A stretch of DNA of 61,522 bases, taken from contig JAQTUW010000019.1 in NCBI GenBank assembly GCA_028707085.1, forward strand, positions 1 through 61,522, in the 5' to 3' direction. The notes beneath the pieces were generated by a model. It made no database searches, was not told the DNA's origin, and saw nothing but the letters and a program-made list of their open reading frames with translations. Origin of the DNA: Methylococcales bacterium (GTDB lineage: Bacteria > Pseudomonadota > Gammaproteobacteria > Methylococcales > Methylomonadaceae). Positions 29,514 to 54,624 of this stretch are shown here, one piece after another. The translations under genes were made by a program, and so were the position numbers. Position 1 is the stretch's first letter. Each line of letters begins with the position of its first letter.

Positions 29514-29542
29514 TTGACAAGCCATCGCTCTCCGCCTAGACT
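29514..29542 (+). promoter_or_regulatory. Sigma-70 type promoter of nrdAB
   Basis: A perfect -35 TTGACA (29514-29519) is followed by 17 bases and a -10 TAGACT (29537-29542). Transcription would start near 29549, so the transcript would begin immediately before the cobalamin riboswitch. Confidence 0.65.
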
Positions 29543-29551
29543 GCCTGCCGA

Positions 29552-29740
29552 GATGGTTCCCCCCAAAAGGGATTAAAAGGGAATCCGGTCTTCAATTCAG
29601 GACGCTATTTGCTCCGGATTGACGGTAGCCGGAGCTGCCCCCGCAACTGTACTCGGCGAGTTTTTAGCCACACATGCCACTGGATATTTATCCGGGAAGG
29701 CGGACTAAAGACAGCGACCCGAAAGCCAGGAGACCTGCCC
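29552..29740 (+). ncRNA. Cobalamin (AdoCbl) riboswitch upstream of nrdAB
   Basis: All the conserved blocks of the cobalamin riboswitch are present in order: GGTTCCCC...AAAAGGGAATCCGGT (29555-29589), GCCGGAGCTGCCCCCGCAACTGTA (29628-29651), the B12-box GCCACTGG (29676-29683), CGGGAAGGC (29693-29701) and GACCCGAAAGCCAGGAGACCTGCC (29716-29739). It faces nrdA, 148 bases before its start codon. Downstream, CGCTCCGG (29802-29809) can pair with CCGGAGCG at 29758-29765, and GCTCCGGC (29803-29810) can pair with GCCGGAGC at 29628-29635 in the core. A 5-base hairpin (29862-29880) covers the nrdA ribosome-binding site. Control is therefore probably translational, with nrdAB off when B12 is plentiful. Confidence 0.95.
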
Positions 29741-29888
29741 TCGCAATTTTTGTCAATCCGGAGCGGGGCGCTTCCGAAGACGATGATAAGCTCACGATCC
29801 TCGCTCCGGCTGCTACCGAACCAGAGCGCGCTCGTATCGGCTGCGCGTCTTTCGCTACTCGCCACGCCCAAACTTCGTGGAGAATAGC

Positions 29889-37429: not shown

Positions 37430-39261
37430 GACAGCAAGCCTATGGCGATGATGGCGGCGGCGCCGAAGCCCATGACTGCCGCATAGCGGCGCACCTTGCC
37501 GGTCTGCGACGCGCCAAGCATGGCGTGCAGCCGCATGCAGAGCCGGGCTATCGCCGCATATTCCCTGTCAATGACATCATTTTTATTGATTTCGGCAATG
37601 AACTGGAAGGGCCGCAGCCACAGACGGTCATAAAGCCGGTCGAAGCCCCAGCCGTCTAACCAGAATTGCCGCAAACCCTTGAACCACGGCTTTGCGGCAA
37701 GGGCTTGCGCCGCCTGAGCCGCGCCCAGGTAACGCCATGCCGCCAGCAGCACGCCGGCAAATGGCGCAAGCAGGCTGACAAGGTTCAGCGGATCGAAAAC
37801 CCCCGGTTCCGGTTTGGCGGGCAGAAGCGGAAAGACCGAAGCCAGCGGAATCCGCAACAGCGCGCCGCCCAGCGCCAGCAGACATAATAGCAGCAGGGGC
37901 GTACGCATGCGCCAGTCCATGCCGGTTACGGTTTCCCGGTTTTCGGGGCCGAAAAAGGCCACGAACAGCAAACGGAAGCTGTAAAAGCCGGTCAGCGCCG
38001 CGCCGAAACAGGCCGCCGCCCACAGGACGGGGGAAACGGCGAACACGGCCAGCAGAATTTGGTGTTTGCTATAGAAGCCGGCGGTAAACGGCAGTCCGGC
38101 CAGCGCCGCGCAGCCGACCACGAAACTCCAGAAGGCGACCGGCAGCTTGCGACGCAAGCCGCCCATCCTGAAAATGTCGTGCTCGTGGTGGAAACAGAAT
38201 ATCACCGCCCCCGCCGCCAGAAATAGCAGCGCCTTGAAAAAGGCGTGAGTCAGCAAATGAAAAATCGCCGCCGACCATGCGCCGACGCCCAGGGCCAGAA
38301 ACATGTAGCCGATCTGGCTGATGGTGGAATACGCCAGAATGCGCTTGATGTCGGTCTGCGCCAGCGCCGAAAAACCGGCCAGCAGCAGGGTGGTCGCGCC
38401 GATCAGGGCCACGGCGAACTGCACTTGCGGGGCGAGCACGAACAGGCCGTGCATTCTGGCGATCAGGTAGATGCCGGCTGTGACCATGGTGGCGGCGTGA
38501 ATCAGCGCGCTGACCGGGGTGGGGCCGGCCATGGCGTCCGGCAGCCAGCTCTGCAAAGGCAGTTGCGCGGATTTGCCCACCGCCCCGCCGAGCAGCAGCG
38601 CCGAGGCGGCGACCGGCAATAGCGAGCCTGGCCGCCAGTGTTCCGCGGCCAGGGCTTGCAGCGCCGGGATGTCCAGGGTATGCAGGCGGGTAAACAGCAG
38701 AAGCAGCCCCAGCAGCAGGGCGGTATCGCCCACCCTGGTCATGACGAAAGCCTTGCGCGCGGCATGGCCGTTGTCCGGGTTCTGGTACCAGAAGCCGATC
38801 AGCAGATAACTGCTCAGGCCGACGCCTTCCCAGCCCATGTACAGCAGGGCCAGATTATCCGCCAGCACCAGCAGCAGCATGGCGGACACAAACAAATTCA
38901 TATAGGCGAAAAACCGGGCGTAATCGGCGTCGTCCGCCATGAATCCGGACGAATATAGATGAATCAGCCAGCCCACGCCGGTCACCACCAGCAGCATGGT
39001 CAGCGACAGGGCGTCCAGATAAAAACCGAACGGCAATGATAAATCGTCCACCGCCAGCCACGAGCCGGCGGCCACCCGGCAGGGTTCCATGCCGCCGCGC
39101 AGATAGGCCGCGCCGATTAGCGCCGACAACAGGGCGCAAACGCCTACGCTGCCGCAACCCGTCCAGGCGATGACCGGTCTGGCGAGACGGCCGCCGGCCA
39201 GAGCCAGGAACAAAAAGCCGAGTAATGGAAACAGGGGTAGCAAATAAAGCTGCTCAATCAT
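37426..39261 (-). CDS. nuoL: NADH-quinone oxidoreductase subunit L
   Basis: NuoL is the most distal antiporter-like subunit of complex I and carries the long lateral helix HL at its C-terminus. The 611-residue product has GKSAQLPLQSWLPDAMAGPTPVSALIHAATMVTAGIYL with key Lys and His residues, plus ILAYSTISQIGYMFLALG. The length is normal and the C-terminal helix and anchor are present. It is between nuoK (8 bases away) and nuoM (overlapping). Confidence 0.95.
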   Translation of the reverse strand: MIEQLYLLPLFPLLGFLFLALAGGRLARPVIAWTGCGSVGVCALLSALIGAAYLRGGMEPCRVAAGSWLAVDDLSLPFGFYLDALSLTMLLVVTGVGWLIHLYSSGFMADDADYARFFAYMNLFVSAMLLLVLADNLALLYMGWEGVGLSSYLLIGFWYQNPDNGHAARKAFVMTRVGDTALLLGLLLLFTRLHTLDIPALQALAAEHWRPGSLLPVAASALLLGGAVGKSAQLPLQSWLPDAMAGPTPVSALIHAATMVTAGIYLIARMHGLFVLAPQVQFAVALIGATTLLLAGFSALAQTDIKRILAYSTISQIGYMFLALGVGAWSAAIFHLLTHAFFKALLFLAAGAVIFCFHHEHDIFRMGGLRRKLPVAFWSFVVGCAALAGLPFTAGFYSKHQILLAVFAVSPVLWAAACFGAALTGFYSFRLLFVAFFGPENRETVTGMDWRMRTPLLLLCLLALGGALLRIPLASVFPLLPAKPEPGVFDPLNLVSLLAPFAGVLLAAWRYLGAAQAAQALAAKPWFKGLRQFWLDGWGFDRLYDRLWLRPFQFIAEINKNDVIDREYAAIARLCMRLHAMLGASQTGKVRRYAAVMGFGAAAIIAIGLLS

Positions 39262-39269
39262 CCGTCCGC

Positions 39270-39578
39270 CTAGTCTTTCATGTCGCTCACCGCATCCGCA
39301 TCCAGCGTGCGCCAGCGGCGAAAGATCAGTAATGTCAAACTCAGGCCGACGCCCACTTCCGCGGCGGCCAGAGTCAGTATCAGCAGAAACATGATTTGCC
39401 CGTCAGCCTGTCCCCAGCGGGAACCGGCGACGATAAAGGCCAGTCCGGCGGCGTTGAGCATGATTTCCAGCGACATCAACATGAAAATCAGATTGCGCCG
39501 CACCAGTACGCCGGTCAGGCCCAGCACGAACAGCACGGCGGACAGCAGCAGGCCGTATTCCATCGGAATCGGGTTCAT
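39270..39578 (-). CDS. nuoK: NADH-quinone oxidoreductase subunit K
   Basis: NuoK is a small three-helix subunit of the complex I membrane arm with glutamates used in proton transfer. The 102-residue product begins [18 protein letters not shown] and has [14 protein letters not shown], and [28 protein letters not shown], the expected conserved glutamates. The longer open frame upstream is an artefact inside nuoJ; the ATG at 39578 overlaps the nuoJ stop by 4 bases. Confidence 0.95.
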
Positions 39579-40090
39579 GGTTGTCTCCGTTGCCGATTTC
39601 TGTCCAGCATGGGTTTGCCCAGATGGTAAGCGCCGACCAGACCGGCCAGCAATAACATGGAAGCCAGTTCCACGGCCAGCAGATAAGGGCCGAACAAGGC
39701 CACGCCCACCTGCCTGGAATCCACCGTCTGGCCGGCCGGCGCATGACCGCCGGCTATCATCACCAGCACTTCGGCCAGCAGTATCAGCGCCAGCAGGGCC
39801 GGGCCGAGCCACATGCCGGGCGTAAGCCAGCGGTTTTCCTGTTCGATGGTCTTTTGGCCCTGATTCATCAGCATCAGCGCAAACACGAAAATCACCATGA
39901 TGGCTCCGGCGTAGATGATCACTTCCAGCACCGCCGCAAAGTGCGCGCCCAGCAGGAAGAACAGCACGCTCGCCGCCAGCAGCGACAGAATCAGATACAG
40001 CAGGCTGTGCACCACATTGCGGCCGACGATGGTCATCAGCGTGGCGAACACCGCGACAGCCGAGGCGATTGTGAACAGTATCATTTCCAT
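39575..40090 (-). CDS. nuoJ: NADH-quinone oxidoreductase subunit J
   Basis: NuoJ is a membrane subunit of complex I with five predicted helices. The 171-residue product has the pi-bulge helix region [25 protein letters not shown], typical for the family. It follows nuoI by 12 bases and overlaps nuoK by 4 bases. Confidence 0.94.
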
Positions 40091-40102: not shown

Positions 40103-40618
40103 TCAGGGCAATAGCGTTTTTACATCCACAGGCGGCGCTTCGTTTTCGGCCTGCCCCTTATCTTTACCGGCTATGCTCATGCCGGCCACCCGGTAAAAAT
40201 TGTAATCGTGGTGCTTGCCGGTACCGTCAATCAGCAGGTGTTCCTTTTCGTAGACCATGTTCTGTCGGTCATATTCGCACATCTCAAAATCCGGCGTCAG
40301 TTGAATGGCGTAGGTCGGACAGGCTTCCTCGCAAAACCCGCACATAATGCAGCGCGAAAAATTGATGCGAAAGAAGGCGGGATACCAGCGGCCGCTTTCG
40401 TCCTCGGCTTTCTGCAGGGCGATACAGTCTACCGGGCAGGCCGCCGCGCACAGATTGCAGGCCACGCAGCGTTCCTCGCCGTCCGGATCGCGGGTCAGCA
40501 CGATGCGGCCCCGGTAACGCGGCGACAGCGCCGGTTTTTGCTCGGGGTACTGCACGGTGTCCGCCTTGACCAGGGTATGTTTGCATACTTCCCATAGGGT
40601 TCTTAACAGACTCAGCAT
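40103..40618 (-). CDS. nuoI: NADH-quinone oxidoreductase subunit I
   Basis: NuoI carries clusters N6a and N6b, two [4Fe-4S] centres linking the peripheral arm to NuoB. The 171-residue product has two ferredoxin motifs: [15 protein letters not shown] and [15 protein letters not shown]. The C-terminal 20 residues are variable. It lies between nuoH (9 bases) and nuoJ (12 bases). Confidence 0.96.
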
Positions 40619-40627
40619 GATTCGGCC

Positions 40628-41590
40628 TCAAATTCGGGCGACTGTCAGCGCTATCGCGCCGGTGGCCAGCAGGTTGAACAGCGCCGCCGGCAGCAGGATC
40701 TTCCAGCCGAAAGCCATCAATTGATCGTAACGCGGGCGCGGCAGCGAACCACGCACTAAAATAAAGAACGCGATGCAGATTCCGGTCTTCAGGCAGAACC
40801 ACAGCAGCGGCGGCAGCCAGGGGCCTAGCCAGCCGCCGAAAAACAGGGTGACGATCAGCGCCGAACTCAGCGTGACGCCCAGATATTCGCCGACGAAAAA
40901 CATGCCGAATTTCATGCCCGAATATTCGGTATGAAAACCGGCCACCAGTTCCTGTTCGGCCTCCGGAAGATCCAGCGGCGCGCGGCGGCTTTCGGCTATG
41001 GCGGCCACCAGAAACACGCAAAAGCCTAAAAATTGCGGCGCGATAAACCAGCCATCGCGTTGAGCCTCGACGATCTGCCGCAAGTTGAAACTGCCGGACA
41101 GCATCACCACGCCCATGACGGAAATACCCATGAACACTTCGTAACTGATGGTTTGCGCCGCCGCCCGCAGCCCGCCCAGAATCGCATATTTGTTGTTGGA
41201 GGCATAACCGGCCAGGATCATGCTGTAGACCGATAGCGAGCTCAGCGCCAGAAAATACAGCAGGCCGAAATTCAAATCGACGACGCCGACATCCGGCGCG
41301 AACGGGATGACGGCAAACCCGCTGAGCATGGTGGCGAAGACGATGACCGGGGCCAGCACGAACACCGGCTTGTCGGCGAAAGGCGGTATCCAGTCTTCCT
41401 TGAAAAACATTTTGATCATGTCCGCCGCCACCTGCAACAACCCGAAAGGGCCGACCCGGTTGGGGCCGATCCGATCCTGCCAGACGGCCAGCAGTTTGCG
41501 CTCCACCCAGATCAGCAGCGCGGAAACGGTAATCGCGGACAGCAGAATGCCGAATATGGCCGCCGGACTGCCGATGCCGGTGTCGATCAT
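40628..41590 (-). CDS. nuoH: NADH-quinone oxidoreductase subunit H
   Basis: NuoH is the membrane subunit at the quinone-binding junction of complex I. With the start at ATG 41590 the product has 320 residues and eight hydrophobic segments. Conserved parts include [54 protein letters not shown] and [13 protein letters not shown]. The ATG overlaps the nuoG stop (ATGA), so the open frame's further 13 codons are not used. Confidence 0.96.
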
Positions 41591-44274
41591 GGCCGATCTC
41601 CTTTTTGCAGGGTCACCGGCCCGGCCCATGCCAGCGCAATGCAGTCCGGCAGGCCGGCGGCGACCAGCAAGCCGCAGGCCAGCGTCGGTTCGATTTTAAC
41701 CGGCAAGCATCGCGACAGCGCACCGTCCGCTGAGGCGATGACCAGCCATTCGCCGGAGGCCACCGCCAGGGTCTCGGCATCCGCCGGATTCAGCAAAACG
41801 CCGGGCGGCGGCGCTCGCTCGGCCAGGGCCGGGGCATGCAGGCTCAGCTCCTCGCCGCCGAATATATGCAGCGGCGGCGGCAGCACCCGCCATAGCCCGG
41901 GCTCGGGTCGGAAAGCGTCAGGAATCTGTGTGAACCACGCCCCCTCGCCAGCGGCTTCGAACAGCCTGATCCCGCCGTCTCCGCCGGATAAATGGCCGCC
42001 TATTTCAGCCTGAAAGCGGTTGACGGCCTGGGCGGAATTCCAGCCCGGCGTCCAGAATACCGGTTGCAGCGCGGCCGGTATGCCGACGGACGCGCCTTCC
42101 ATGGAAAAGGCGAGAGCGGTTTCGGCATCCTGCGCCTGACGCGGTTCGCTGACCTTCAGATCGGCAAGCATTGCGGTGCGGCCGCTGTAACGCGGCGGCT
42201 GGCGGGGAATTTTCATGGCGTCTACTCTGAACGCAGCATCCGGCGCGGCGGCGACGATGCCGGCAAGCGCCGGAAAAGCCTGGGCGCAGGCGGCGGTGAG
42301 ATCGTCGAAATGCCGACAGTCACTGTTATCCATGGCCGCCAGTAGCCATTGCCATGCGCCGCGCACCGGCTCCGGCGGCGGATACACCGGAAAATAACGC
42401 TGGGCCCGGCCTTCGTTATTCACCAGCGTGCCGGCGGATTCGGCATAAGTCGCGGCAGGCAGCAACAGACCCGCCCGCGCCGCGGTTTGATGCGGCAGAC
42501 AGTCGATGACCACCACTTGCGCCGCCTGTTGCAAAAAGGCGTCTACGGCTTGCGCCGGCGCACGGCGGTAAAGATCGTTCTCGACGATGATCACGCAGCC
42601 TGCCGTATGCTCGGCCACCCGTCGGAAAGCCTGCTGCAAGGGCTTGCCGGCCATCATCGTCAGCCCCAGGCTATTACTTTCCGGCACGCTAAAAACCAGT
42701 TGTCCGCCGTTCGGTCGCAAGGCCCGGGCGACATTATAGGCCGCCTGTATCGCCGCCAGCTCGCCGCAGCCGGTTCCGGAGACGATCAGCGGCCGGGCCG
42801 CCTGTCGCAAGGCGGCGGCAATTTCCGCCGCCAGCGCCTGTTGCGCCGCATCCAGACCGGCAGGCGAGGGGGCCTGGCCGTCCAGGCAGTGGGCGACGGC
42901 GAACCCGAGCCTGGCAATGTCTTGCGGACTGGCCCGATAGCAGCGGCCGGCAACATCGTCCAGCCGGGTAGGGCAGATGCTGGCGATGAATAGCGGACTG
43001 CGATGCTGTTTTTCCAGCTCGCGGACGGCGGCGTCCCGCCAGGGCGGCAAACCCAGCTCTCCGGCCCGGCGGAATGCGGCGTTGCGCACGGTCTGGCGTA
43101 ACGCCAGCCCCAGCCTGGGCGCGGTATTCACCGGGTCTTCGCCCAGGATCAGCACCGCGTCGGCCTGTTCGACTTCCCGTAGGGACGGGGTGTGAACGCC
43201 GCCGTCGGCGAGCAGATCGCGGATGGTTTCCAGCATGGCCTGTTCGCCGCCATCCAGGCCGGCATAGAAGTTTTCCGCGCCGACCAGACTGCGCAAGGCA
43301 AAATTGGTTTCCAGGGAGGCGCGGGGCGAGCCAATGCCGATGGCCGGCAGATGGCCGTTGAGCATTGCCCGGAAGCGTTGTTGTGCCGCGTCGGCGGCGA
43401 TTTCGGCATGGTTATCCAGGCGGGGGGTTCTGATCCGCTCCGGGCTGTTGACGAAATCGTAACCGAATCGCCCGCGATCGCAGAGAAAATAGCCGTTGAT
43501 GTCGCCATGATAGCGGTTGACCACCCGCCGCAACCGGCCATAACGTTCGCCGGGCGAGATATTGCAGCCCAGCCCGCAGTGGACGCAAACCGATGGCGCG
43601 GTCTGCAAGTCCCATTTGCGGGCGTAATGGGCGCTGAAGGTTTTATCGGTAAACACCCCGGTGGGGCAGACTTCGGCCAGATTGCCGCTGAATTCGTTTT
43701 CCAGCGCCCCGTCCTCGAAACGGCCGAAATAAACGTTGTGATGCATGCCCAGCACCTGCAAATCGCTGCCGCCGGCGTAATCGGCGTAAAATCTGACGCA
43801 GCGATAGCAGGCGATGCAGCGGTTCATTTCATGATTGAGGAACGGGCCAAGATACTGGTTTTTATGGGTGCGCTTCAGGCCGCGATAACGGCGGCGGGTA
43901 TGGCCGGACAGCAGGGTCATGTCCTGTAGATGGCATTCGCCGCCTTCCTCGCACACCGGGCAGTCGTGAGGGTGATTGGTCATCAGCAGTTCGATGTTGA
44001 CGCCGCGAAAGCGTTGCGCCTGTTCGGCGGCGATGGACACCCGCATGCCGTCCGTCACCGGCGTCATGCAGGCCATGGTCAGCCGGCCCAGGCTGTCCGC
44101 GGCGTCGCGGTACTGAATGACGGCGCACTGCCGGCATGCGCCCACCGAACCCAAAGCCGGATGCCAGCAAAAATACGGCAGATCCAGCCCTAGCGTCTGG
44201 CAGGCCGTCAACAGGCTGACGCCGGATTTGACCCGGTATGCCAGGCCATCGATATCGATGTCAATAGTATTCAT
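41587..44274 (-). CDS. nuoG: NADH-quinone oxidoreductase subunit G
   Basis: NuoG is the largest peripheral subunit of complex I, carrying a [2Fe-2S] and several [4Fe-4S] clusters. The 895-residue product has the 2Fe-2S domain ([26 protein letters not shown]), [17 protein letters not shown], a histidine-ligated motif and [13 protein letters not shown] for N4/N5-type clusters, and a molybdopterin oxidoreductase-like C-terminal half. I start it at ATG 44274 (MNTIDIDI), overlapping the end of nuoF by 14 bases; the frame extends 15 codons further upstream inside nuoF. Confidence 0.95.
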
Positions 44275-45562
44275 CGGCTTGCTCCAGCGGCGGTGTTTTG
44301 CCGGTAATATACGCTTCAAAATCCGCCCGGAAGAACTTCAGCGCGCTCTGCAACGGCTCCATGGCCCCCGGCGCCAGGGCGCAAAAGGTATTGCCGGGCG
44401 CCATCATCCGCACAAGATCGGTCAGCGTGTCCAGGTCTTCGCTACGACCCTGGCCGCCGATAATGGCCTGCAACAGCACCACGACCCAGGGCAGGCCGTC
44501 GCGGCAGGGGGTGCACCAGCCGCAGGACTCGCCGGCAAAGAACTGTTGCAGATTCAGCACCATTCGCACCGGACAGGTTTTGTCGTCCAGCACGATCATC
44601 GTGCCGGTGCCCAGTCGGCTGCCGGCTTTGGACACGGCGTCGTAATCCATGACCACATCCAGATGCTCGGGCAGCAGAAAATCGGTCGATGCGCCGCCGG
44701 GCAAAAAACCGCGCAAGGCATAGCCTGGAATCATGCCGCCGGCGTGATCCTCTAAAATTTCTCTGACCGGCGTGCCCATCGGCAGTTCCCAGACCCCGGG
44801 CCGTCTGACCCGGCCGCTGGCGCCGAACAGTTTGGTGCCTTTGTCGGCACCGCGCCCCAGGCTTTGATACCATGCGCTGCCGTAATGCAGAATGTGCGGG
44901 ATGTTGCACAGGGTTTCGACATTATTGACCACCGTGGGCTTGCCCCACAGGCCGCTGACCTGCGGAAAGGGCGGTTTTGCGCGGGGATTGGCGCGTTTGC
45001 CCTCCAGCGCGTTGATCAATGCCGTTTCCTCGCCGCAGATATAGCGGCCCGCGCCGGCATGCAGATGAATGTCCAGACTGAAGTTCGATCCCAGAATATG
45101 CCGGCCAAGATAGCCGCCGGCGCGGGCTTCGAGCAGGGCTTGATTCAGTCGCCGGGCGGCGAGATGGTATTCGCCGCGCAAAAAGATATAAGCCTGCGTG
45201 GCCTGGATGGCGTAGCCGGCGATGATCAGGCCCTCAAGCAACTGGTGCGGGTCTTTTTCCATCAGCAGCCTGTCCTTGAAGGTTCCGGGTTCCATTTCGT
45301 CGGCGTTGGCGATCATAAAGCGGATTTTCGGCGCATCCTCGCCGGTCGGCACGAAGCTCCACTTCAGGCCGGTGGCGAAGCCCGCGCCGCCGCGGCCCCT
45401 GAGCCCGGCGTCACTGACCTGTTGCTGCACGGCTTGCGGCGACAATTCCGAAACCGCGCGGCGCAAGCCCTGGTAGCCGCCGCTGCGCTCATAATCGGCG
45501 AGCGTGGCGTAATCCCGGTCGGGGAGGATGTTCCGGGTCAGTGGTTTAGCGGCCGCGTCCAT
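44261..45562 (-). CDS. nuoF: NADH-quinone oxidoreductase subunit F
   Basis: NuoF binds NADH, FMN and the N3 [4Fe-4S] cluster. The 433-residue product has the NADH/FMN motif GLRGRGGAGFATGLKWSF, the ICGEETALINALEG region, and the cluster motif ESCGWCTPCRDG near residue 350. It is normal in length. Its ATG overlaps the nuoE stop by one base (TGATG). Confidence 0.96.
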   Translation of the reverse strand: MDAAAKPLTRNILPDRDYATLADYERSGGYQGLRRAVSELSPQAVQQQVSDAGLRGRGGAGFATGLKWSFVPTGEDAPKIRFMIANADEMEPGTFKDRLLMEKDPHQLLEGLIIAGYAIQATQAYIFLRGEYHLAARRLNQALLEARAGGYLGRHILGSNFSLDIHLHAGAGRYICGEETALINALEGKRANPRAKPPFPQVSGLWGKPTVVNNVETLCNIPHILHYGSAWYQSLGRGADKGTKLFGASGRVRRPGVWELPMGTPVREILEDHAGGMIPGYALRGFLPGGASTDFLLPEHLDVVMDYDAVSKAGSRLGTGTMIVLDDKTCPVRMVLNLQQFFAGESCGWCTPCRDGLPWVVVLLQAIIGGQGRSEDLDTLTDLVRMMAPGNTFCALAPGAMEPLQSALKFFRADFEAYITGKTPPLEQADEYY

Positions 45563-46056
45563 CAGCTTTGCTCCCCCAGTATCTCGGTCACGGCCGTTTC
45601 AGCGCCGACGCCGGTGACCAGCCGCTCGCCGACCATCAGCGCCGGGGCCTGGTCGCAAGCGCCCAGGCAGGCTATGGGCAGCAGGGTGTAGCGGCCGTCC
45701 GGGCTGATCTGGCCGGGCCGGGCGTTTAGGTGTCGGCACAGGCGTTCGCGCAGATCATCCGCGCCCAGCATCCAGCAGGTGACGCTGCTGCAATAGTGGA
45801 TCACGGTTTCGCCCACCGGTTGCCGGTATATCAGGTTATAAAAAGTCGCCACCGCCTCCAGTTGCGCGGTCGAGACGTCCAGCAGGCTGGCCACGGCGGT
45901 CAGGGCCGCGTCGGACACCCAGCCCTGGCGGCGCTGCACGATTTTAAGGGCTTCCACGGCGGCGGCGGCCTTATCCGGGTAATGCGCCATTTCCGCCTTG
46001 ATGTCGCGGATGTCGTCGGCGTTTAGCATGCTGGCGGTTTGGGCGTCGATACTCAT
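45562..46056 (-). CDS. nuoE: NADH-quinone oxidoreductase subunit E
   Basis: NuoE carries the [2Fe-2S] cluster N1a. The 164-residue product has the four ligands in CSSVTCWMLG and CLGACDQAP, and the family helix-rich N-terminus. The ATG at 46056 comes one base after the nuoCD stop; five extra codons upstream in the same frame lie inside nuoCD. Product length is typical for the family. Confidence 0.94.
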   Translation of the reverse strand: MSIDAQTASMLNADDIRDIKAEMAHYPDKAAAAVEALKIVQRRQGWVSDAALTAVASLLDVSTAQLEAVATFYNLIYRQPVGETVIHYCSSVTCWMLGADDLRERLCRHLNARPGQISPDGRYTLLPIACLGACDQAPALMVGERLVTGVGAETAVTEILGEQS

Positions 46057-46057
46057 G

Positions 46058-47836
46058 TCAGCGATCCACATCGGCCATCACAAAATCGATGCTGGCCAGT
46101 ATCGCGATCAGATCGGCGATCATCATCCCCCGGCACATGGCGGGTATCATCTGCAAATGTGCGAAGGAGGGGGTGCGGATGCGGGTGCGGTAGGACATCA
46201 CCCCGCCGTCGCTGGTCAGGTAATAGGCGTTAAGGCCCTTGGCGGCTTCTATGGTCACGCTGGCTTCGCCGGCCGGAATCACCGGCCCCCAACTGCTGTT
46301 CAGAAAATGCTGGATCAGGGTTTCGATATCATGCAGGGCTGCGGTTTTCGGCGGCGGCGTGCCTAGCGGGTGGTCTGTTTTGTACGGCCCGGCCGGCATC
46401 TGTTGCAGACATTGTTTGATGATGCGCAGGCTCTGGCGCATTTCCTCCACCCGCACCGCGCAACGGTCGTAACAGTCGCCGCGTTTGCCGACGGGAATAT
46501 CGAACGCGTAGTTTTCGTAACCGGAATAGGGGCGGGCCTTGCGGTAATCCCAGCCAAAGCCGGTGGCCCTTAGCCCCGCGCCGGTCACCCCCCAGTCCAC
46601 GGCTTCGGCGCGGCTGTATGCGCCTATGCCTTGGGTGCGGCGTTTGATCAGGCTGTTTTTCATCACCATTTTATGGTACTGATCCAGCCGGCGCGGCAAA
46701 TATTCGATAAATTCCGCAACCCTTTTCTCCCAGCCGTGCGGCAAGTCCAGCGCCACGCCGCCGATGCGGAAATAACTGGCATGCATCCGCGCCCCGCTAA
46801 TCGACTCCAGGATGTCGAACACCTTCTCGCGGTCGATGAACATGTAAAAAATCGGCGACATTTGTCCGACATCCTGAGCGAACGTGCCGTAAAACAGCAA
46901 ATGGCTGGCGAGCCGGTAGAACTCCGCAATCATTACCCTGATCGCCTGCGCCCGTTCCGGAACCCGGATGCCGGCCAGCTTTTCCACGGCCAGTACATAG
47001 GGCAGGTTGTTCATGGAGCCGCCCAGATAATCTATCCGGTCGGTATAGGGGATATAGGTATGCCAAGACTGGCGCTCGGCCATTTTTTCCGCGCCGCGAT
47101 GGTGGTAGCCGATGTCGGGCACGGCGTCGATTATTTCCTCGCCGTCCAGTTGCAGCGCGATGCGGAACACGCCATGCACGCTGGGATGGTTGGGGCCCAG
47201 GTTCAAAAACAGAAACTCGCTGTCGTCGTTGTGCCGGCGCATGCCCCATTCTTCCGGCACGAAGCGGAGTTGCTCCTGCTCGAATGCCTGATCCTGCTCG
47301 GACAGGCTGAAGACCTCCATTTCCGTGGCGCGGGCGGGATGCTCCTTGCGCAGCGGATGGCCCTGCCAGCCCGGCGGCATGATGATGCGCCTGAGATTGG
47401 GATGCCCCTGAAAGACGATGCCGAACATGTCCCACACCTCGCGTTCGTACCAGTTGGCCGCCGGCCAGATATCGCAGATCGAAGGCAGCGCCAGCGCATT
47501 GGCGGATAAGGCTACCTTGAGGCGGATATCGTCATTGCGGTCGAAGGAAAGCAGATGGTAGACCACGGTAAAGTCGCTATCCGGCAGGCCGTGCCGGTGG
47601 CTGCGCATCCGCTCGTCGATGGCGGTCAGATCGAACAGCAGCTTATAGCCGGCTATCAGGGTGTTTTTTAAAAAGCCGAGCAGGCGGCGGATATCGCCGG
47701 CGGACACCCAGAGGGTGGGGATGCCGTCGGCCACTGGTTGCAGGCTAAAGCTGTCCTGACCGAACAACGCCGCCAGTTCCGATATCACAGGCGGCGGCCC
47801 GTCGGCCGTATCGACGCTTACCGGCAGAGCGTCCAT
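46058..47836 (-). CDS. nuoCD: NADH-quinone oxidoreductase subunit C/D fusion
   Basis: The 592-residue product is a natural fusion of NuoC (about 1-190) and NuoD (about 205-592), the gammaproteobacterial form. The C part has [22 protein letters not shown], the D part [27 protein letters not shown] and the quinone-site region. Its start is directly preceded and overlapped (19 bases) by nuoA', and the usual nuoB is not upstream but lies 4.7 kb away. The promoter for this whole half operon is probably the duplicated one at 48095-48123. Confidence 0.95.
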
Positions 47837-48039
47837 CGCCTTATCCGCTTGAAAATCACAATAAAGCTGGCCAGCAGGTAAAAGCGGACAGGCATGTCGC
47901 GGGTGGCGACGATGCCCGACTTGAAGGTTTCCTCGGCGGCTTTGGCGGTATGCCGCCGGCCCAGAAAACAGGCCCCGCCCGGCGCAGGATAGACGATGAG
48001 CGGTAAAAGATCGGCGGCGGCTAGCGCTTCGGCATTCAT
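47818..48039 (-). pseudogene. nuoA': truncated duplicate of nuoA in front of nuoCD
   Basis: From ATG 48039 this 73-residue frame reads [20 protein letters not shown], then [26 protein letters not shown] and [12 protein letters not shown]. It is clearly nuoA (53207-53620) with an internal in-frame deletion of about ten residues near residue 20. Identity with nuoA stops near 47851, after FIVIF, and the frame then runs through unrelated codons to a TAA 19 bases inside nuoCD. The rest of nuoA and all of nuoB are missing from this copy. It cannot make a full NuoA but may be translated as a leader coupled to nuoCD. Confidence 0.85.
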
Positions 48040-48094
48040 CAGGTCTACCCTCATCAAAAACGGAAAACAGGATTCTTGTTCTTTGCGCGCTTTT

Positions 48095-48123
48095 ACGCTA
48101 CCCGCTAAGTCCGATGGTGTCAA
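48095..48123 (-). promoter_or_regulatory. Second copy of the nuo promoter
   Basis: On the minus strand, TTGACA (48118-48123), 17 bases, TAGCGT (48095-48100). Both hexamers, the spacing and much of the surrounding sequence match the promoter ahead of nuoA at 53806-53834. It lies about 55 bases upstream of nuoA'. Confidence 0.6.
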
Positions 48124-48316
48124 CTTTTTTCAGGCCCAATTTTTTCTGGGCGATTGCCTGGCTGGTGGAGATGGCGGCTTCACTAACACAAACAATCATC
48201 CTTTTGAGGATGATCGGAAAAGACTTTTTTGACTAAACGGATAATTAATGCCAGAAGCGCTTTTTTATCCATGTAAGGCTGCCCCAAAGCTGCGTGGAAT
48301 GATCAGGGCATGGAAA

Positions 48317-48658
48317 TTATTCAGAACATAAATTTTGCGCCCTTTCATTAACCGGCAATGGATCCTCTGTGGAGTTGTTGGGTACAAGCCAGCGGTAACG
48401 CATTTCTGCGCCTTTACTGACCATAAACACCCGTTCCACCCAAAAGCCTTCGTCCACGGCAAAAACCCGCCAACCCAAATCACGATGGGTATGACTTAGC
48501 ATTTGATCAAAAAACTGGTCAACTGTTAGACCGGCGGTGCATGGTTGAGTTTTTACGAGCTTTTCGGCAATTGAATGGCCATCTTCGGCAATTACAGGCA
48601 ACGAAAAAAGCGTACTGAAAAGCGCAAATAATGACAGCCCAATGGTGTTTCGAAACAT
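48317..48658 (-). CDS. Exported hypothetical protein, 113 residues
   Basis: I choose ATG 48658, with GAGGGG six bases upstream, over the open frame's 48808. Residues 1-24 (MFRNTIGLSLFALFSTLFSLPVIA) are a Sec signal peptide. The mature part is small and soluble with three cysteines (QPCTAG, NLCSE) and a WRVFAVDEGFWVERVFMV stretch. I recognise no family. It lies between nuoA' and amtB, on the nuo strand. Confidence 0.6.
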   Translation of the reverse strand: MFRNTIGLSLFALFSTLFSLPVIAEDGHSIAEKLVKTQPCTAGLTVDQFFDQMLSHTHRDLGWRVFAVDEGFWVERVFMVSKGAEMRYRWLVPNNSTEDPLPVNERAQNLCSE

Positions 48659-49244
48659 AGTCGGCCCCTCGTCGATAGTGGATGACGGCCGCTGGGTGAG
48701 TTCGGAATCTGACGCCTGATTAGGTTGGCGTGCTCGGTGAAACAAGCGGCAGTAACGTTGCCCAAACCGGAAAATGAATTCCGTAACTTCAGAAACGCAA
48801 AAATCCAAGATTGCGTATGACCGCTAAAGGCCGAGCAACTCTACAATAAAAATAATAGCGAATCAATACTTTTTATTAAAATCTTGGATGCTTTTAACGG
48901 TGACAACCAAATAGAAAGCGGGAGGCAATTATCGGCCATCGACGGTACAGTGATTACGCTCGGCGGCCCTTGATGAGATCAATGCTATGGCTTGATAAAA
49001 CCACAAACGTAGCAGAACGCCAGAAATGGATGCAGTACAAGATTTATCCGTACCTGTTGCGAGGCGTTGACAGCATCCGCCCCAATCTACCGACAGCACC
49101 TATATCCGGCTGCCGTGTGGCTTGCCGATCTGGCGGCAACCCCTAAAGTAGAGTCGATTCGATATTTGTTTGTCTATTGGTTTATTTTAATGCATAATAA
49201 AAAAACGCTCCATTGTGGGGCATTTATTAAGCGGGAAGATTACC
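48659..49244. other. 586-base region without a convincing gene
   Basis: AT-richer than the flanking nuo DNA. A 57-codon open frame (48973-49146, plus strand, LDKTTNVAERQKWMQYKIYP) and a short protein-like run ending at about 48974 (NQIESGRQLSAIDGTVITLGGP) may be debris of a lost mobile gene; neither has a good start. The amtB promoter should lie in the last 100 bases. I could not find a clear sigma-54 site of the TGGCAC-N5-TTGC type there. Confidence 0.35.
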
Positions 49245-50540
49245 ATGAAAAAATTTCTCGACACAGCCATTTTTTCGCTTGTTGCGACCGGATTTTGGCC
49301 AACACTTGCCTATGCCGATCAATTCAATGCCGCAGATACTGCCTGGATATTGACTGCTTCAGGTCTGGTTTTATTCATGACTGTTCCTGGACTGGCGCTG
49401 TTTTATGGCGGCTTGGTACGCACTAAAAACGTACTATCCATCATGATGAAATGTTTTGCCATTACCTCGGTGGTATCTGTTTTGTGGCTACTCGGCGGTT
49501 ATAGTCTCGCGCTTAGCGACGGCGGTTCCTGGCAGGCATTACTGGGCGGTTTTTCCAAACTGACGCTGGCAACTGTTAATGCCCATACAGTTAAAGATAA
49601 TTTGCCTGAAACCGTGTTTTGTATGTATCACCTAACTTTTGCTATTTTTGCGCCCGCCCTGATCATAGGCGGAGTTGCAGAACGCATGAAGTTTTCCGCT
49701 TTATTGTGGTTTGTAGCCTTGTGGGAAATTTTAATCTACGTCCCTGTTTGTCATTGGATTTGGGGCGGCGGCTGGTTGTCCCAATTAGGCGTTATGGACT
49801 TTGCCGGAGGTATCGTAGTCCATACAACCGGCGGAGTAGCCGCAATGATTGGCGCTATTATGGTTGGCGCCCGGCATGGTTTTCCTCGCGTACCCATGCC
49901 GCCACATAATCTGACAATGACTGCCACAGGGGCCGGGGTTTTATGGGTCGGCTGGCACGGGTTTAGCGCAGGCAGCGCCTTAATGGCTAATGGCTCAGCA
50001 GGTATTGCCATGCTATCGACTCACATGAGCGCCGCTGCCGGCTCCTTGGCATGGATGACCATAGAATGGTTCCGTTTCGGCAAACCGAGCGTACTGGGAT
50101 TATTGACCGGCCTAGTTGCCGGCTTAGGCATGATAGCCCCTTCTGCGGGCTTTGTGTCCCCATTAAGCGGATTGGTTATCGGTTTAATTGCTGGTTGCGT
50201 TTGTTTCTTTTCTTTACACGCAATTAAACGACGTTTGGCCTTTGATGACACGCTTGATGTTTTCGCGATTCACGGGGTTGGCGGAATAATAGGTTCACTT
50301 TTAACCGCAATTTTTGCCAGTGAAGCGCTCGGTGGCATTGGACAGTTAGCGGATGATGGCATTTCCGGGCAATTATTGGCGCAGGCGATTGCTGTGCTAT
50401 CTGTCTTGGTTTGGAGCGGACTAATGAGTTACGCCATTCTCAAGCTGGTTGATAAAACAATCGGTTTGCGCGTTGGGGCCAGCGACGAATCATTAGGCTT
50501 AGATATTTCCCTGCATAACGAGCAGGGCTACAACTATTAA
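49245..50540 (+). CDS. amtB: Ammonium transporter AmtB
   Basis: AmtB is a trimeric inner-membrane channel that imports ammonium. The 431-residue product has a signal peptide (about 1-24, cleaved near AYA/DQF), then eleven hydrophobic segments, with MVPG-like FYGGLVRTKNVLSIMM, DFAGGIVVHTTGGVAAMIGA and AIHGVGGIIGSLLT, which hold the twin histidines of the pore. The start is ATG 49245 (GGGAAG upstream). It is transcribed opposite to the surrounding nuo genes and is followed by glnK after 50 bases. Confidence 0.95.
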   Translation: MKKFLDTAIFSLVATGFWPTLAYADQFNAADTAWILTASGLVLFMTVPGLALFYGGLVRTKNVLSIMMKCFAITSVVSVLWLLGGYSLALSDGGSWQALLGGFSKLTLATVNAHTVKDNLPETVFCMYHLTFAIFAPALIIGGVAERMKFSALLWFVALWEILIYVPVCHWIWGGGWLSQLGVMDFAGGIVVHTTGGVAAMIGAIMVGARHGFPRVPMPPHNLTMTATGAGVLWVGWHGFSAGSALMANGSAGIAMLSTHMSAAAGSLAWMTIEWFRFGKPSVLGLLTGLVAGLGMIAPSAGFVSPLSGLVIGLIAGCVCFFSLHAIKRRLAFDDTLDVFAIHGVGGIIGSLLTAIFASEALGGIGQLADDGISGQLLAQAIAVLSVLVWSGLMSYAILKLVDKTIGLRVGASDESLGLDISLHNEQGYNY

Positions 50541-50572
50541 CTAAATGCCTGTAAATAATCTGTATTGCCTAG

Positions 50573-50932
<360 letters not shown>

Positions 50933-51165
50933 AAATGAATCCGGAAGGCCGTGTGCAGCAAACCGTTTACGATGGCAACGTAACGTTTTTTCTTTCGAAT
51001 CCAACTCGTCAAATACGTCTCATCCTTGTTTTTGTTTTTAGCCGCTTATGAAGCTTAGGCTCACTAATCGTTGTAACGGCAAAACCGTTCCCCCCGCTGG
51101 CGTTCAATTCATTTTTTGATGTTGGGGGATGCCTTCTTTGGAACTTACTTTATGTTGGCGGAACT

Positions 51166-51792
51166 TCAGTCACGCAATGTAGACGCCTTGTTTGAACAGC
51201 ATGGAGCGCGCAAAGGTTCGACCGATTCAAGCAAGGCGTAATAAGGACGCAAAGCGACCATCGCTGCCTGAAAAATAGTAAAGGCATCGGTCGGATCTTT
51301 CTGTTTAAGCTCGGCGACCTCGTTCAGAAAACGATGCAGCATTTTTAACAGATTTTCGATCGACATCGCCAGCCAGGCGTCGTTGGTAATCCATTTGTCG
51401 ATAAATTCATCCAAACGCGCGAAGGTTCGTTTCATCAGGGGATAAGCGGTTTGCGTTTCCTTGTGTTCCCGGAGGGCCATATATTCGAGGTAAGCCTGTT
51501 CGGATATGACCCGCGGACGATTGGTGGCTATAAGGTAAGTGGCTTTGTAGTCGGCATGGATGGAGTCGAATTTATCGCAAAATTCGGTTTCGGTCGTCAT
51601 GTCAAGCCACGGCTGAAGACTGGCCGCCGTTACGCCATAGCACTCGCCGATTACGCCTGTCATTTTGTCGAATTGCTCGACAAAGGCTGGCTTCCTGAGT
51701 TCGCCTTTAATCAGATTTTCAATCGCGGCCAGCTCGCTGGCAGTGACGCAAACCGTGGCCAATTCCCTAACAATATTGAGTTCGACTCCCAT
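51166..51792 (-). CDS. Hypothetical helical protein, 208 residues
   Basis: A soluble, mostly alpha-helical protein with no signal peptide or membrane segment. Features visible: a helical N-terminus (LAAIENLIKGELRKPAFVEQFDKMTG), YKATYLIATNRPRVISEQAYLEYMALREHK, and a cysteine pair near the end (APCCSNK). I recognise no family. It lies on the minus strand between glnK and the YegP-like gene, which is 66 bases upstream. Confidence 0.55.
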   Translation of the reverse strand: MGVELNIVRELATVCVTASELAAIENLIKGELRKPAFVEQFDKMTGVIGECYGVTAASLQPWLDMTTETEFCDKFDSIHADYKATYLIATNRPRVISEQAYLEYMALREHKETQTAYPLMKRTFARLDEFIDKWITNDAWLAMSIENLLKMLHRFLNEVAELKQKDPTDAFTIFQAAMVALRPYYALLESVEPLRAPCCSNKASTLRD

Positions 51793-51857
51793 ATCGCCGA
51801 CACCTACCTATTTCCGTTATCTGGAGAAAAAATTTATGAACCGTCCCGATTTTTAGT

Positions 51858-52193
51858 TTACTCGGTCAAATCGACAATTTCGGCAACGCAGGCATTGTCT
51901 TTAACAATGTGCAGCGCATTGTCGAACACCATGTTCGAGTTATATAAAACGCTTTTTACAATGATGGCGCCGGTCGAATCTTTGATGACAAAAAAAGTGT
52001 CGCCCTCAGGAATTTTGCTGGCGGCGATTTGGTTGCTCATTAATGAACCGGCTCTCACTTCTTTAATGGCCTGCATGGCTTCTTCCTTGTTGCCGTAATC
52101 GCCGCTCATCAGAATGAGTTCGCCCTTACTGTTGAGGAAATTAAAAAAATACTGATTTTCGTCGTTGGTTTTAAGTTCAAAAGTGGCTGGCAT
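51858..52193 (-). CDS. YegP-like DUF1508 protein (two repeats)
   Basis: The 111-residue product has two DUF1508 (YegP) repeats: residues about 10-50 (NQYFFNFLNSKGELILMSGDYGNKEEAMQAI) and about 62-105 (DTFFVIKDSTGAIIVKSVLYNSNMVF). This beta-beta-beta-alpha fold occurs widely and has no known activity. ATG 52193 has a plausible ribosome-binding site (CCGGAACAG) upstream. It probably belongs with the adjacent helical gene. Confidence 0.8.
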   Translation of the reverse strand: MPATFELKTNDENQYFFNFLNSKGELILMSGDYGNKEEAMQAIKEVRAGSLMSNQIAASKIPEGDTFFVIKDSTGAIIVKSVLYNSNMVFDNALHIVKDNACVAEIVDLTE

Positions 52194-52295
52194 GTTCTGT
52201 TCCGGAAGTTATCGGTTGGAGTAGGGTTAGCGCCGATCAAATTTTAGCCGCCTGATTCCTCACTAATTACAGGAAAATCCCTACAGAAGAGAAAC

Positions 52296-52415
52296 CTAAG
52301 TGCGACCGGCAGAGGCTATAAAGCCAAATGCAAGCAGCATGCCAATAAAAAATACTTTATAATCAGCGCAGAGCGTGTCTTCACTTGTCCAATTGTCAGT
52401 TTTGACACACGACAT
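52296..52415 (-). CDS. Possible 39-residue membrane peptide
   Basis: ATG 52415 opens 39 codons to TAG 52296-52298: a polar start (MSCVKTDNWTSEDTLC) followed by a single hydrophobic segment (VFFIGMLLAFGFIASAG). The same frame is open further upstream to about 52512 with protein-like residues but no start codon. It could be a real single-pass peptide or the tail of a broken gene. It lies downstream of nuoB on the same strand. Confidence 0.3.
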   Translation of the reverse strand: MSCVKTDNWTSEDTLCADYKVFFIGMLLAFGFIASAGRT

Positions 52416-52500
52416 TGACGGCGATCCGATAGCCGTTAAAACGTCCTCATCAAGCAGTGGTGCGTAACCGTTAGGCGTAAAAGCGAATGCCTCGATATCA

Positions 52501-52520
52501 GATGGGTAGCCCTACCCATC
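52501..52520. terminator. Hairpin 45 bases past the nuoB stop
   Basis: GATGGGTAG and CTACCCATC form a perfect 9-base stem with a 2-base loop. It could end nuoAB transcription, though no T-run follows on the minus strand. Confidence 0.35.
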
Positions 52521-52564
52521 TTATAAGCTTAGTAAAACCAACACAAAATTCAAAAAATCGCGGC

Positions 52565-53203
52565 TTAAACATGATCGGGATCGTCAAGCTCGGTGACCCG
52601 CATCCTGGCCGGCGTCAGGATATCCCGCTGGCTGGGCTTGTCGGCTTTAACCACCGTCTGTTCGCCGACCACCCAGCTTAACGGCCGTCTTTCCTGGCCG
52701 ATTGCCTGCTGTAGCAGCATCAGGCCCTGCAACAGGGCTTCCGGACGCGGCGGACAGCCCGGCACATAAACATCCACCGGCAGGAATTTGTCCACCCCCT
52801 GCACCACGCTGTAAATATCGTACATGCCGCCGGAGTTGGCGCAGGAGCCCATGGAAATCACCCAGCGCGGCTCCAGCATCTGATCGTATAGCCGTTTGAC
52901 CACCGGAGCCATCTTGCGGAAAACCGTGCCGGATATGACGATCAGATCGGCCTGTCTGGGGGTGCTGCGAATAACTTCCGAACCGAAGCGGGCTATGTCG
53001 TGCCGACTGGTGAATGCGGTCGCCATTTCCACATAGCAGCAGGACAGGCCGAAGTTGAACGGCCACACGGAATTGGATTGCCCCCAGGCCACCATGTCTT
53101 CCAGTCGGGCCAATAGAAAATTGCGGCGCAACGCTTCCTCGTAGCTTTGCTGGCCGGGCCTGGGCGCGGCATCGGTTTCCGGACGGGAGAGACTCCAGCG
53201 CAT
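52565..53203 (-). CDS. nuoB: NADH-quinone oxidoreductase subunit B
   Basis: NuoB carries cluster N2, the last Fe-S centre before quinone. The 212-residue product has the ligands in [23 protein letters not shown] and [12 protein letters not shown]. The C-terminus (about 30 residues, after the last motif) is longer than usual. It follows nuoA by 3 bases. In a normal nuo operon nuoCD would come next; here a hairpin and unrelated genes follow. Confidence 0.96.
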
Positions 53204-53206
53204 TGC

Positions 53207-53620
53207 TTAATCCCCAAGGCCGGATTCGACGGCGCGCTGGCGGCGGGTGCGCCAGTCCAGCGCGCCGCATGACCATAGGTACAGCAGCGACAGCAGCAAT
53301 ACCGCGATGAACAGCAGGGCGGCAAGATAACCCGGCCAGCCCGATTGGTAAAATGCCACCGACCAGCCGAACAGATATACCGACTCCATGTCGAAAATCA
53401 CAAAAAAGATGGCCAACAGATAAAAGCGGATGGAAAAACGGATATGCACGTCGCCGGTGGCGACGATGCCGGACTCGAAGGTTTCGTCGGCGGCTTTGGC
53501 GGTATGCCGCTGGCCGAGAAAATAGGCCCCGCCCAGCATGATGGCGGCCACGGCCAGCACCGCCGCAAGATAAATGATGAGCGGTAAAAGATTGGCGGCG
53601 GCTAGCGCTTCGGTTTTCAT
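53207..53620 (-). CDS. nuoA: NADH-quinone oxidoreductase subunit A
   Basis: NuoA is a three-helix membrane subunit of complex I near the quinone site. The 137-residue product has PLIIYLAAVLAVAAIMLG, the loop ESGIVATGD with SIRFYLLAIFFVIFDMESVYLF, and two more helices. I start it at ATG 53620, with GAGGG nine bases upstream. The frame also has a TTG start at 53638. The first 90 codons and its promoter region are duplicated at 47818-48123. Confidence 0.94.
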   Translation of the reverse strand: MKTEALAAANLLPLIIYLAAVLAVAAIMLGGAYFLGQRHTAKAADETFESGIVATGDVHIRFSIRFYLLAIFFVIFDMESVYLFGWSVAFYQSGWPGYLAALLFIAVLLLSLLYLWSCGALDWRTRRQRAVESGLGD

Positions 53621-53805
53621 CGGGTCTACCCTCGTCAAAAACGGAAAACAGGGCTATTCAGCGTATTTTCAGGCTATTACAAACGCGATAGCGTAGGATG
53701 CGCCGATGGCTTGATTGTCGCACCACGGCTCAATGGATACTGAATGGTTACTTTTTTATGTCTTCGCCGGCGGAACGCCGGCCTTTCTGTTCTTTGCGCG
53801 CTTTT

Positions 53806-53834
53806 ACGCTACCCGCTAAGCCTGGCGGTGTCAA
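53806..53834 (-). promoter_or_regulatory. nuo promoter (copy ahead of nuoA)
   Basis: On the minus strand, TTGACA (53829-53834), 17 bases, TAGCGT (53806-53811). It lies about 185 bases upstream of nuoA. The second copy at 48095-48123 is identical in both hexamers and spacing. A stretch of about 130 bases (53653-53784) between it and nuoA has no match in the second copy and contains a dispersed-repeat-like sequence. Confidence 0.6.
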
Positions 53835-53892
53835 CTTTTTTCAAGACTGATGTTTCTTCCCGCCAATCGCCCGGCTGGCGGGAATGGCCGCT

Positions 53893-54624
53893 TCAGCGGC
53901 CTGGAAGCAGGGCTTTCAGGCCGGGCAGCCAGTCGGCAAAATCCGCCAGATAGTTATAGCCGCAGACCGTCTTCAGCGCCTGGTCGCTGACGATGTCGAA
54001 TATGCGTTGGGCCTGTTGCAGTGTTGCCGCGCCGGGGCCGTAGGGATTGAACTGCATGCCGGAATCGGTCAGAAACACATAGTCGCAGATGAACAGCACG
54101 TCCTGGTAGATGTAAAAGGTAAAGCCCGGGGTATGCCCGCCGACATGATAGGCCTGTATGCCGTAGGCGGAAAAGTCATCGCGGAAGCGGTGGTCGATGT
54201 CGAACGCCGTAGCCAGTCTGTGCCCGGCATCCTGTTCGTGCAACCAGATCTGGGCGTTCCATAGCTTGCGGTACTGGTTGGATGCGCCCAGGAAATGGTG
54301 ATGGGTGAACAGAATGGCGTCCACGGCCGGCAAGGTTCGGTTAAAAGCCGAGGGCGAATCGATCCATACCGCGCCGGATTCGGTTTCGACGCGATAGGCG
54401 GCGTGCTCCAGCCCCAGTCTGGGTACTGAAAGCAGTTGGCTGACCGCTGCGTTGACCGGACGACTGGTCACCTGATAGGTTTTTTCGGCCTCGTCCCAGG
54501 CCATGAACCGGTCGTGCCTGGCCCCGCAAAACGGGCAAATATCCGGCATCTCGCCTATCATGTTATAGCCGCATTGCAGGCAGACCCACTGCTGCATGTG
54601 GTTCGGAAATTCAGGTGTATTCAT
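53893..54624 (-). CDS. Zinc-ribbon / metallo-beta-lactamase-fold protein
   Basis: The 243-residue product begins with a rubredoxin-like zinc ribbon (WVCLQCGYNMIGEMPDICPFCG, residues 13-34, two CxxC pairs), then a metallo-beta-lactamase fold. The first metal motif reads THHHFLGASN instead of THxHxDH: the Asp-His pair is replaced by Leu-Gly. GGHTPGFTFYI and ICDYVF supply the later His and Asp ligands. So the site may bind only one metal, or the protein may work differently from hydrolases. It is the gene upstream of nuoA on the same strand. The biological role is unknown. Confidence 0.75.
   Translation of the reverse strand: MNTPEFPNHMQQWVCLQCGYNMIGEMPDICPFCGARHDRFMAWDEAEKTYQVTSRPVNAAVSQLLSVPRLGLEHAAYRVETESGAVWIDSPSAFNRTLPAVDAILFTHHHFLGASNQYRKLWNAQIWLHEQDAGHRLATAFDIDHRFRDDFSAYGIQAYHVGGHTPGFTFYIYQDVLFICDYVFLTDSGMQFNPYGPGAATLQQAQRIFDIVSDQALKTVCGYNYLADFADWLPGLKALLPGR

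Follow-up and report, generated by a model that had tools for sequence, protein, structure and literature searches.

Complex I genes in two blocks on one contig

The stretch of DNA analysed here (the window) comprises 61,522 nt and is the entire contig C73 (JAQTUW010000019.1, assembly GCA_028707085.1) of a Methylococcales bacterium of the family Methylomonadaceae, most likely a methanotroph, whose 3.0 Mb genome is distributed over 73 contigs with a completeness of 99.89% and a contamination of 0.31%. It carries a nuo operon for bacterial complex I (NDH-1) that is separated into two halves, and the start region of this operon, including the 5' part of nuoA, is present twice. Read along the minus strand, a gene with an N-terminal rubredoxin-like domain (Pfam match, 53893-54624) is followed by a putative promoter, the intact nuoA (53207-53620; Oxidored_q4, E 3.8e-28), nuoB (52565-53203; Oxidored_q6), several unrelated genes, a repeated copy of the promoter, a nuoA remnant, nuoCD (46058-47836), which encodes a fused 30 kDa/49 kDa subunit of 592 amino acids, and nuoE to nuoN, ending at position 34535. 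The genes behind nuoCD, all on the minus strand and identified by Pfam matches, are nuoE (45562-46071), nuoF (44261-45562), nuoG (41587-44319), nuoH (40628-41629), nuoI (40103-40618), nuoJ (39575-40090), nuoK (within 39270-39812), nuoL (37426-39261), nuoM (35960-37429) and nuoN (34535-35956). The rubredoxin-like-domain gene has a 69% homolog near nuo in the congener G030 (L181:15980-16666), but this homolog is found downstream of nuoN and in the opposite orientation.

Every subunit is matched by Pfam and all frames are open, as in a complete NDH-1 operon, and the cluster is split in that nuoA-nuoB and nuoCD-N are non-adjacent, with two opposite-strand genes among those between them. The distance between the end of nuoB and the start of nuoCD, 4729 nt, confirms the 4.7 kb that a first-pass annotation of the sequence had given for the two same-strand halves. 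Within this operon all nuo subunits other than nuoA occur once and are open; nuoCD is the sole PF00346 match and thus the single 49-kDa gene of the genome, and a genome search for nuoA returned only two matches at E <= 0.001, one of them the complete gene. The nuo gene order of the frames compared is also found in G030, G049, G048 and G157.

In relatives the operon is unsplit. Our family sample consisted of 237 genomes, 29 of which carry this nuoCD at E <= 1e-150, and nuoA, nuoB and nuoCD are contiguous in 26 of the 28 genomes other than the present one, contig ends interrupting the block in G070 and G071. A second set comprised named loci, the 80 closest out of at least 577 relatives and partly drawn from genomes that are also in the family set; the three genes are contiguous in 78 of them, and contig ends interrupt the other two, L023 and L050. 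Hence the split occurs in this genome alone among those assessable. G070, with nuoA and nuoCD on different contigs, was considered as a second split operon and rejected, as both contigs end in the nuoB-nuoCD spacer. The Methylobacter loci L003-L005 and L007, from related methanotrophs, resemble the present operon in starting with nuoA, nuoB and the nuoCD fusion, their nuoCD being 74-78% identical, but they contain no duplication, and nuoA-nuoB stand directly before nuoCD with a spacer of up to ~0.5 kb.

Across the 26 relatives the distance from the nuoB stop to the nuoCD match ranges from 4 to 493 nt. None of these spacers, the long ones in genus g11 included, contained a nuoA-like remnant, the best hits being exact matches of 12-13 nt in five of them, whereas the same search applied to the window as a positive control gave four pieces with a best E of 5.7e-29. 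In genus g11 the nuoB to nuoCD match distance is 140-493 nt in six of eight genomes, some with hairpin-like repeats (loci L121, L122, L124-L126, L128 and L137); of the remaining two, G071 has ~60 nt, and the assembly of G070 breaks there. The comparison of related genomes proposed in the first-pass annotation therefore yielded the unsplit operon and no intermediate.

The duplicated start region and the nuoA remnant

The two start regions were aligned with each other by blastn and matched in two pieces with E values of 2.4e-60 and 4.6e-25, far beyond chance, which settles in the affirmative whether the segments that the first-pass annotation had taken for duplicates share significant identity. 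The downstream duplicate (47851-48182, minus strand) contains the upstream region, the leader and the 5' part of nuoA, and the upstream duplicate (53393-53895, minus strand) the upstream region, a longer leader and nuoA codons 1-76. The repeat starts at the stop codon of the rubredoxin-like-domain gene and ends 14 nt short of the nuoCD ATG. Both copies hold the putative nuo promoter TTGACA-N17-TAGCGT (48095-48123 in the downstream and 53806-53834 in the upstream copy, minus strand), with identical hexamers and four differing spacer bases in the alignment of the two. Compared with the sigma-70 consensus the element has six of six matching bases at -35, a spacing of 17 and three of six at -10. 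With 185 nt from -10 to the ATG, the leader of the intact copy is 130 nt longer than that of the remnant copy, which has 55 nt. The 130 extra nt, searched as a possible dispersed repeat, have one 24-nt match in the genome besides themselves.

Divergence between the copies amounts to 7 of 90 sites in promoter plus leader and 21 of 189 in the pseudogene part (p 0.52). The 48 nt upstream of the promoter differ at 14 sites (p 0.002 versus promoter plus leader, the segment limits having been chosen after alignment). Just upstream of the second promoter copy, 3' of the open reading frame orf48317, the terminator scan placed a terminator-like hairpin (48193-48216, minus strand); such hairpins number 10 in the region against a mean of 9.2 in shuffled sequences, i.e. 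they are not more frequent than in shuffles.

The nuoA remnant (47818-48039, minus strand) is a 73-amino-acid open frame that, aligned with the intact gene, corresponds to codons 1 to ~76 less 27 and 12 nt; 14 nt of non-nuoA sequence then precede the nuoCD start. Both losses are in-frame, and everything beyond codon ~76 is gone. Judged by eye, the first hydrophobic stretch is partly deleted with the 27 nt, and what follows ...VIFDMES is missing through the truncation. The frame overlaps the start of nuoCD by 19 nt and terminates inside it, its stop codon beginning 13 nt past the nuoCD start codon. The 14 nt between remnant and nuoCD, AAGCGGATAAGGCG, are similar to the last bases of the G049 spacer between nuoB and nuoCD, both sequences fitting CGG-N2-AAGGC-N-ATGGA, and less similar to those of G048, so that the junction probably lies in the former nuoB-nuoCD spacer. 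These results fit the earlier proposal of a second promoter copy and a truncated nuoA before nuoCD, both of which were located, and of a deletion of the nuoA 3' part and of nuoB in one copy, with the junction 14 nt before the nuoCD ATG and apparently in the former spacer.

Over 189 shared columns the remnant and the intact copy are 88.4% identical at the DNA level, and the closest of the 26 relatives reaches 78.3% identity to the intact copy. Thus, the copies are nearer to each other than to any of these relatives, and the duplication is specific to this lineage. Each of the 26 is closer to the intact copy than to the remnant. With eight of the 26 as outgroups, 15 of 22 differing sites were assigned to changes in the remnant and 6 to the intact copy, one remaining ambiguous; the pairwise alignment gives 21 differing sites instead of 22 because its gaps are placed differently, and next to the deletions some few sites are ambiguous. 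The changes in the remnant are distributed 6:6:3 over the codon positions, and on both branches together 15 of 19 differing codons are non-synonymous, with 71% of changes expected to be so at random. At the protein level the remnant is therefore a pseudogene and shows no purifying selection. The chance that random change would leave the frame open after two deletions and 15 substitutions is ~0.08-0.09, which is too weak a value for claiming a coding role of the remnant.

The DNA between the halves and the origin of the operon

The intervening DNA contains five frames. Next to the second promoter copy lies orf48317 (48317-48808, minus strand), which encodes a hypothetical protein with no Pfam match. 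Its homologs (40-45% identity) adjoin amtB in six of seven congeners examined, there downstream of amtB on the same strand, and a paralog with 74% DNA identity is located on contig C37. It is followed by the plus-strand genes amtB (49215-50540), for an ammonium transporter, and glnK (50585-50932), for a P-II protein, both identified by Pfam. On the minus strand, towards nuoB, lie a gene for a hypothetical protein (51166-51792), recognised by congener homology, and a gene for a DUF1508 protein (51858-52193, Pfam). This pair is present in 21 of 36 congeners. At the DNA level, the loci available from 14 congeners match it with 76-86% identity from 51226 on, reaching 52460 at the farthest; presence and identity together mark the module as native to the genus. 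The conserved DNA of this 1.2-kb module (51226-52460) covers the pair and ~250 nt upstream of it, which by eye may hold a small membrane-protein frame, and its neighbours often differ among congeners. As homology ended near the same two edges in 11 congeners we considered the pair as a mobile cassette, an idea that was rejected since several congeners share sequence past one edge (by eye). The 105 nt that separate the native DNA from nuoB contain a dispersed palindromic repeat, GATGGGTAGGGCTACCCATC (52485-52536, strand not assigned), which has 84-85% identical copies on contigs C44 and C49, with a third, looser palindrome elsewhere.

An amtB of this type (72-81% identity) occurs in 10 of 36 congeners, plus one partial copy. 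The GC content at third codon positions (GC3) is 0.49 for amtB, 0.36 for glnK and 0.46 for orf48317, and the overall GC content of amtB is 0.49 here as compared to 0.51-0.58 in four congeners. GC3 was also measured for 34 frames that belong neither to nuo nor to the insert; it is at least 0.60 in 24 of them and lower, down to 0.33, in 10, so that the AT-rich composition of the three genes is not decisive for import. An import of amtB-glnK, and of orf48317, is possible as judged by composition. Consequently, the earlier view of an operon opened for foreign genes does not hold for the native pair and may apply to amtB, glnK and orf48317. In the six congeners that possess both intervening units these are 53 kb (G013), 157 kb (G017) or ~2 Mb (G014) apart or lie on different contigs (G002, G011 and G031).

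We also considered that the nuo operon, rather than the intervening DNA, is the newcomer, and did not adopt this explanation. In its favour, nuoCD is found at E <= 1e-50 in only two of 37 genomes of the genus, this one and G030. In a NuoB+NuoCD tree the window stands beside G048/G049 and the g10/g18 clade and G030 in a clade (support 100) with g11, g13, g5, g12, g15, g16 and G050, the nearest node of G030 having a support of only 40. Since the two copies of the genus are apart in the tree, at least one was probably acquired separately. Composition lends no support, as the GC3 of the nuo frames (0.63-0.82) matches that of many other window frames and gives no sign of a recent nuo import.

Probable origin and expression of the split

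We consider it probable that the start segment of the operon was duplicated, that other DNA came to lie between the copies and that the copy near nuoCD decayed to a promoter-bearing leader of nuoCD-N. A segment with the nuo upstream region, nuoA and nuoB would have been duplicated in this lineage, and other chromosomal DNA, the native hypothetical+DUF1508 module and the amtB-glnK unit, would have ended up between the copies. The copy far from nuoCD would have retained intact nuoA-nuoB, and the copy beside it would have lost the nuoA 3' part and all of nuoB, leaving the promoter, the leader and a decaying nuoA 5' piece. The order of these events we infer, as we do the inclusion of nuoB in the duplicated segment and the need for a second promoter. 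The remnant may now act as promoter-bearing leader, in which case complex I would be made from two transcripts, one starting at the upstream promoter and covering nuoA-nuoB, the other starting at the promoter copy and covering the remnant and nuoCD-N. On sequence grounds both promoter copies are likely to work, the upstream region of the remnant being the likeliest start for nuoCD-N, and the opposite-strand amtB-glnK together with the hairpin before the second promoter would make read-through from nuoB or orf48317 less likely.

Several observations weigh against this reading. A consensus promoter scan that requires four of six bases in the -10 element lists neither promoter copy, both having only three, and upstream of the relatives' nuoA no obvious counterpart of the putative promoter was seen by eye. 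As promoter plus leader and pseudogene part do not differ significantly in divergence, selection on the second promoter is neither demonstrated nor excluded. Finally, among the 26 family relatives none is near enough to show an intermediate.

Retention of strand and original order by both halves fits a tandem duplication, which predicts it directly. It is conceivable, though rather doubtful, that the intact promoter-nuoA-nuoB is a dispersed copy or that a chromosomal rearrangement parted the halves, later deletions having brought them to within 4.7 kb. Such a course would suit the fluid gene order around the intervening modules in the genus and the large distances between them in all six congeners having both, as well as the position of the dispersed palindromic repeat exactly between the native module and nuoB and the size of the genome, which at 3.0 Mb is smaller than the 4.4-5.7 Mb of 24 of 36 congeners (the other 12 have 2.0-4.0 Mb); the preserved strand and order speak against it. 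Duplication and insertion might also have occurred in one step, by single-crossover integration of a circular DNA carrying a nuo fragment and amtB-glnK. The expected product, a repeat flanking the inserted DNA, is exactly what is seen, and the low GC3 of amtB, glnK and orf48317, set against the majority of the other frames, and the GC content of amtB, lower than in four congeners, agree with it. However, low GC3 is shared by almost a third of the other frames, the hypothetical+DUF1508 module within the insert is native, and Pfam applied to the five frames of the insert returned no integrase, transposase or plasmid gene, the stretches between the frames not having been scanned for families; we regard this course as quite unlikely.

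The remnant itself might have been retained as a coupling leader, translated and passing ribosomes on to nuoCD, with selection on its open frame. Both deletions preserve the frame, no stop arose, the GAGGG ahead of the nuoA start is retained, and the stop codon begins 13 nt past the nuoCD start codon, the 19-nt overlap being a matter of geometry only. The low chance of an open frame points the same way, although a probability of 0.08 is weak. Moreover, nuoCD retains its own Shine-Dalgarno-like AAGG, as in G049, the protein sequence of the remnant is unconstrained, and the variable distance between nuoB and nuoCD in the relatives implies that tight coupling is not general, so that we hold coupling to be unlikely. 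A very improbable explanation is an assembly error or strain chimera that joined two versions of the operon. The 73 contigs of the genome leave room for it, but 21 of 189 coding sites and indels of 130, 27 and 12 nt distinguish the copies, which share no exact run of more than 33 nt and could hardly be confused as one repeat; in addition, the genome has one complete nuoA, high completeness and low contamination.

Separate clusters for one complex I have precedents. In myxobacteria nuoEFJKLMN and nuoIHGDBA are described as separate clusters (PMC2330069), and a survey states that most clades show a mix of split and single complex I clusters (PMC12361115). The operon of the window resembles the myxobacterial genes in that one complex is encoded in two clusters. 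It differs in that its halves share a strand, with 4.7 kb between them, and that the scar of the split, the duplicated start and the dying nuoA, is still visible. Split clusters are thus already known, of which this is a well-resolved variant. The description of this split as unusual in the first-pass annotation stands for the 26 family genomes and 78 named loci, among which no other was found, but not for bacteria at large, for which split nuo clusters have been published. The literature matches listed include no title describing this arrangement, by which we do not claim its absence from print.

In the general theory of operon evolution, operons break up by gene insertion together with a new internal promoter. 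The present case is similar in that one operon would have become two transcription units, but the second promoter appears to have been copied from the operon's own instead of having newly evolved. The order of nuo genes is reportedly not essential for complex I assembly, as judged from work on E. coli. A further reading, less likely than not, is that the operon was opened without silencing either half, the promoter and first genes being duplicated first and other genes then settling between the copies, with the remnant selected as a promoter-bearing, translated leader. If true, operon break-up would here be seen midway along a 'duplicate first, split later' route. How the operon of a multi-subunit enzyme can be broken up without passing through a costly intermediate is mostly deduced from final states. 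In this locus the scar can still be read: both start copies survive, relatives have the operon unsplit, and the decay can be given a direction at each base. The locus would serve as a specific and testable case in which copying the promoter is what makes the splitting of an operon tolerable. Knowledge of complex I itself is unchanged, and as a rather ordinary snapshot of the break-up of a gene block the case is of modest interest.

The tRNA and Rfam scans of the window yielded nothing bearing on the nuo split. Elsewhere in the window, a cobalamin riboswitch (29537-29756; 107.7 bits, Rfam) immediately precedes genes for ribonucleotide reductase (29877 and 32705), and a cobalamin-independent methionine synthase is encoded at 26189-28465.

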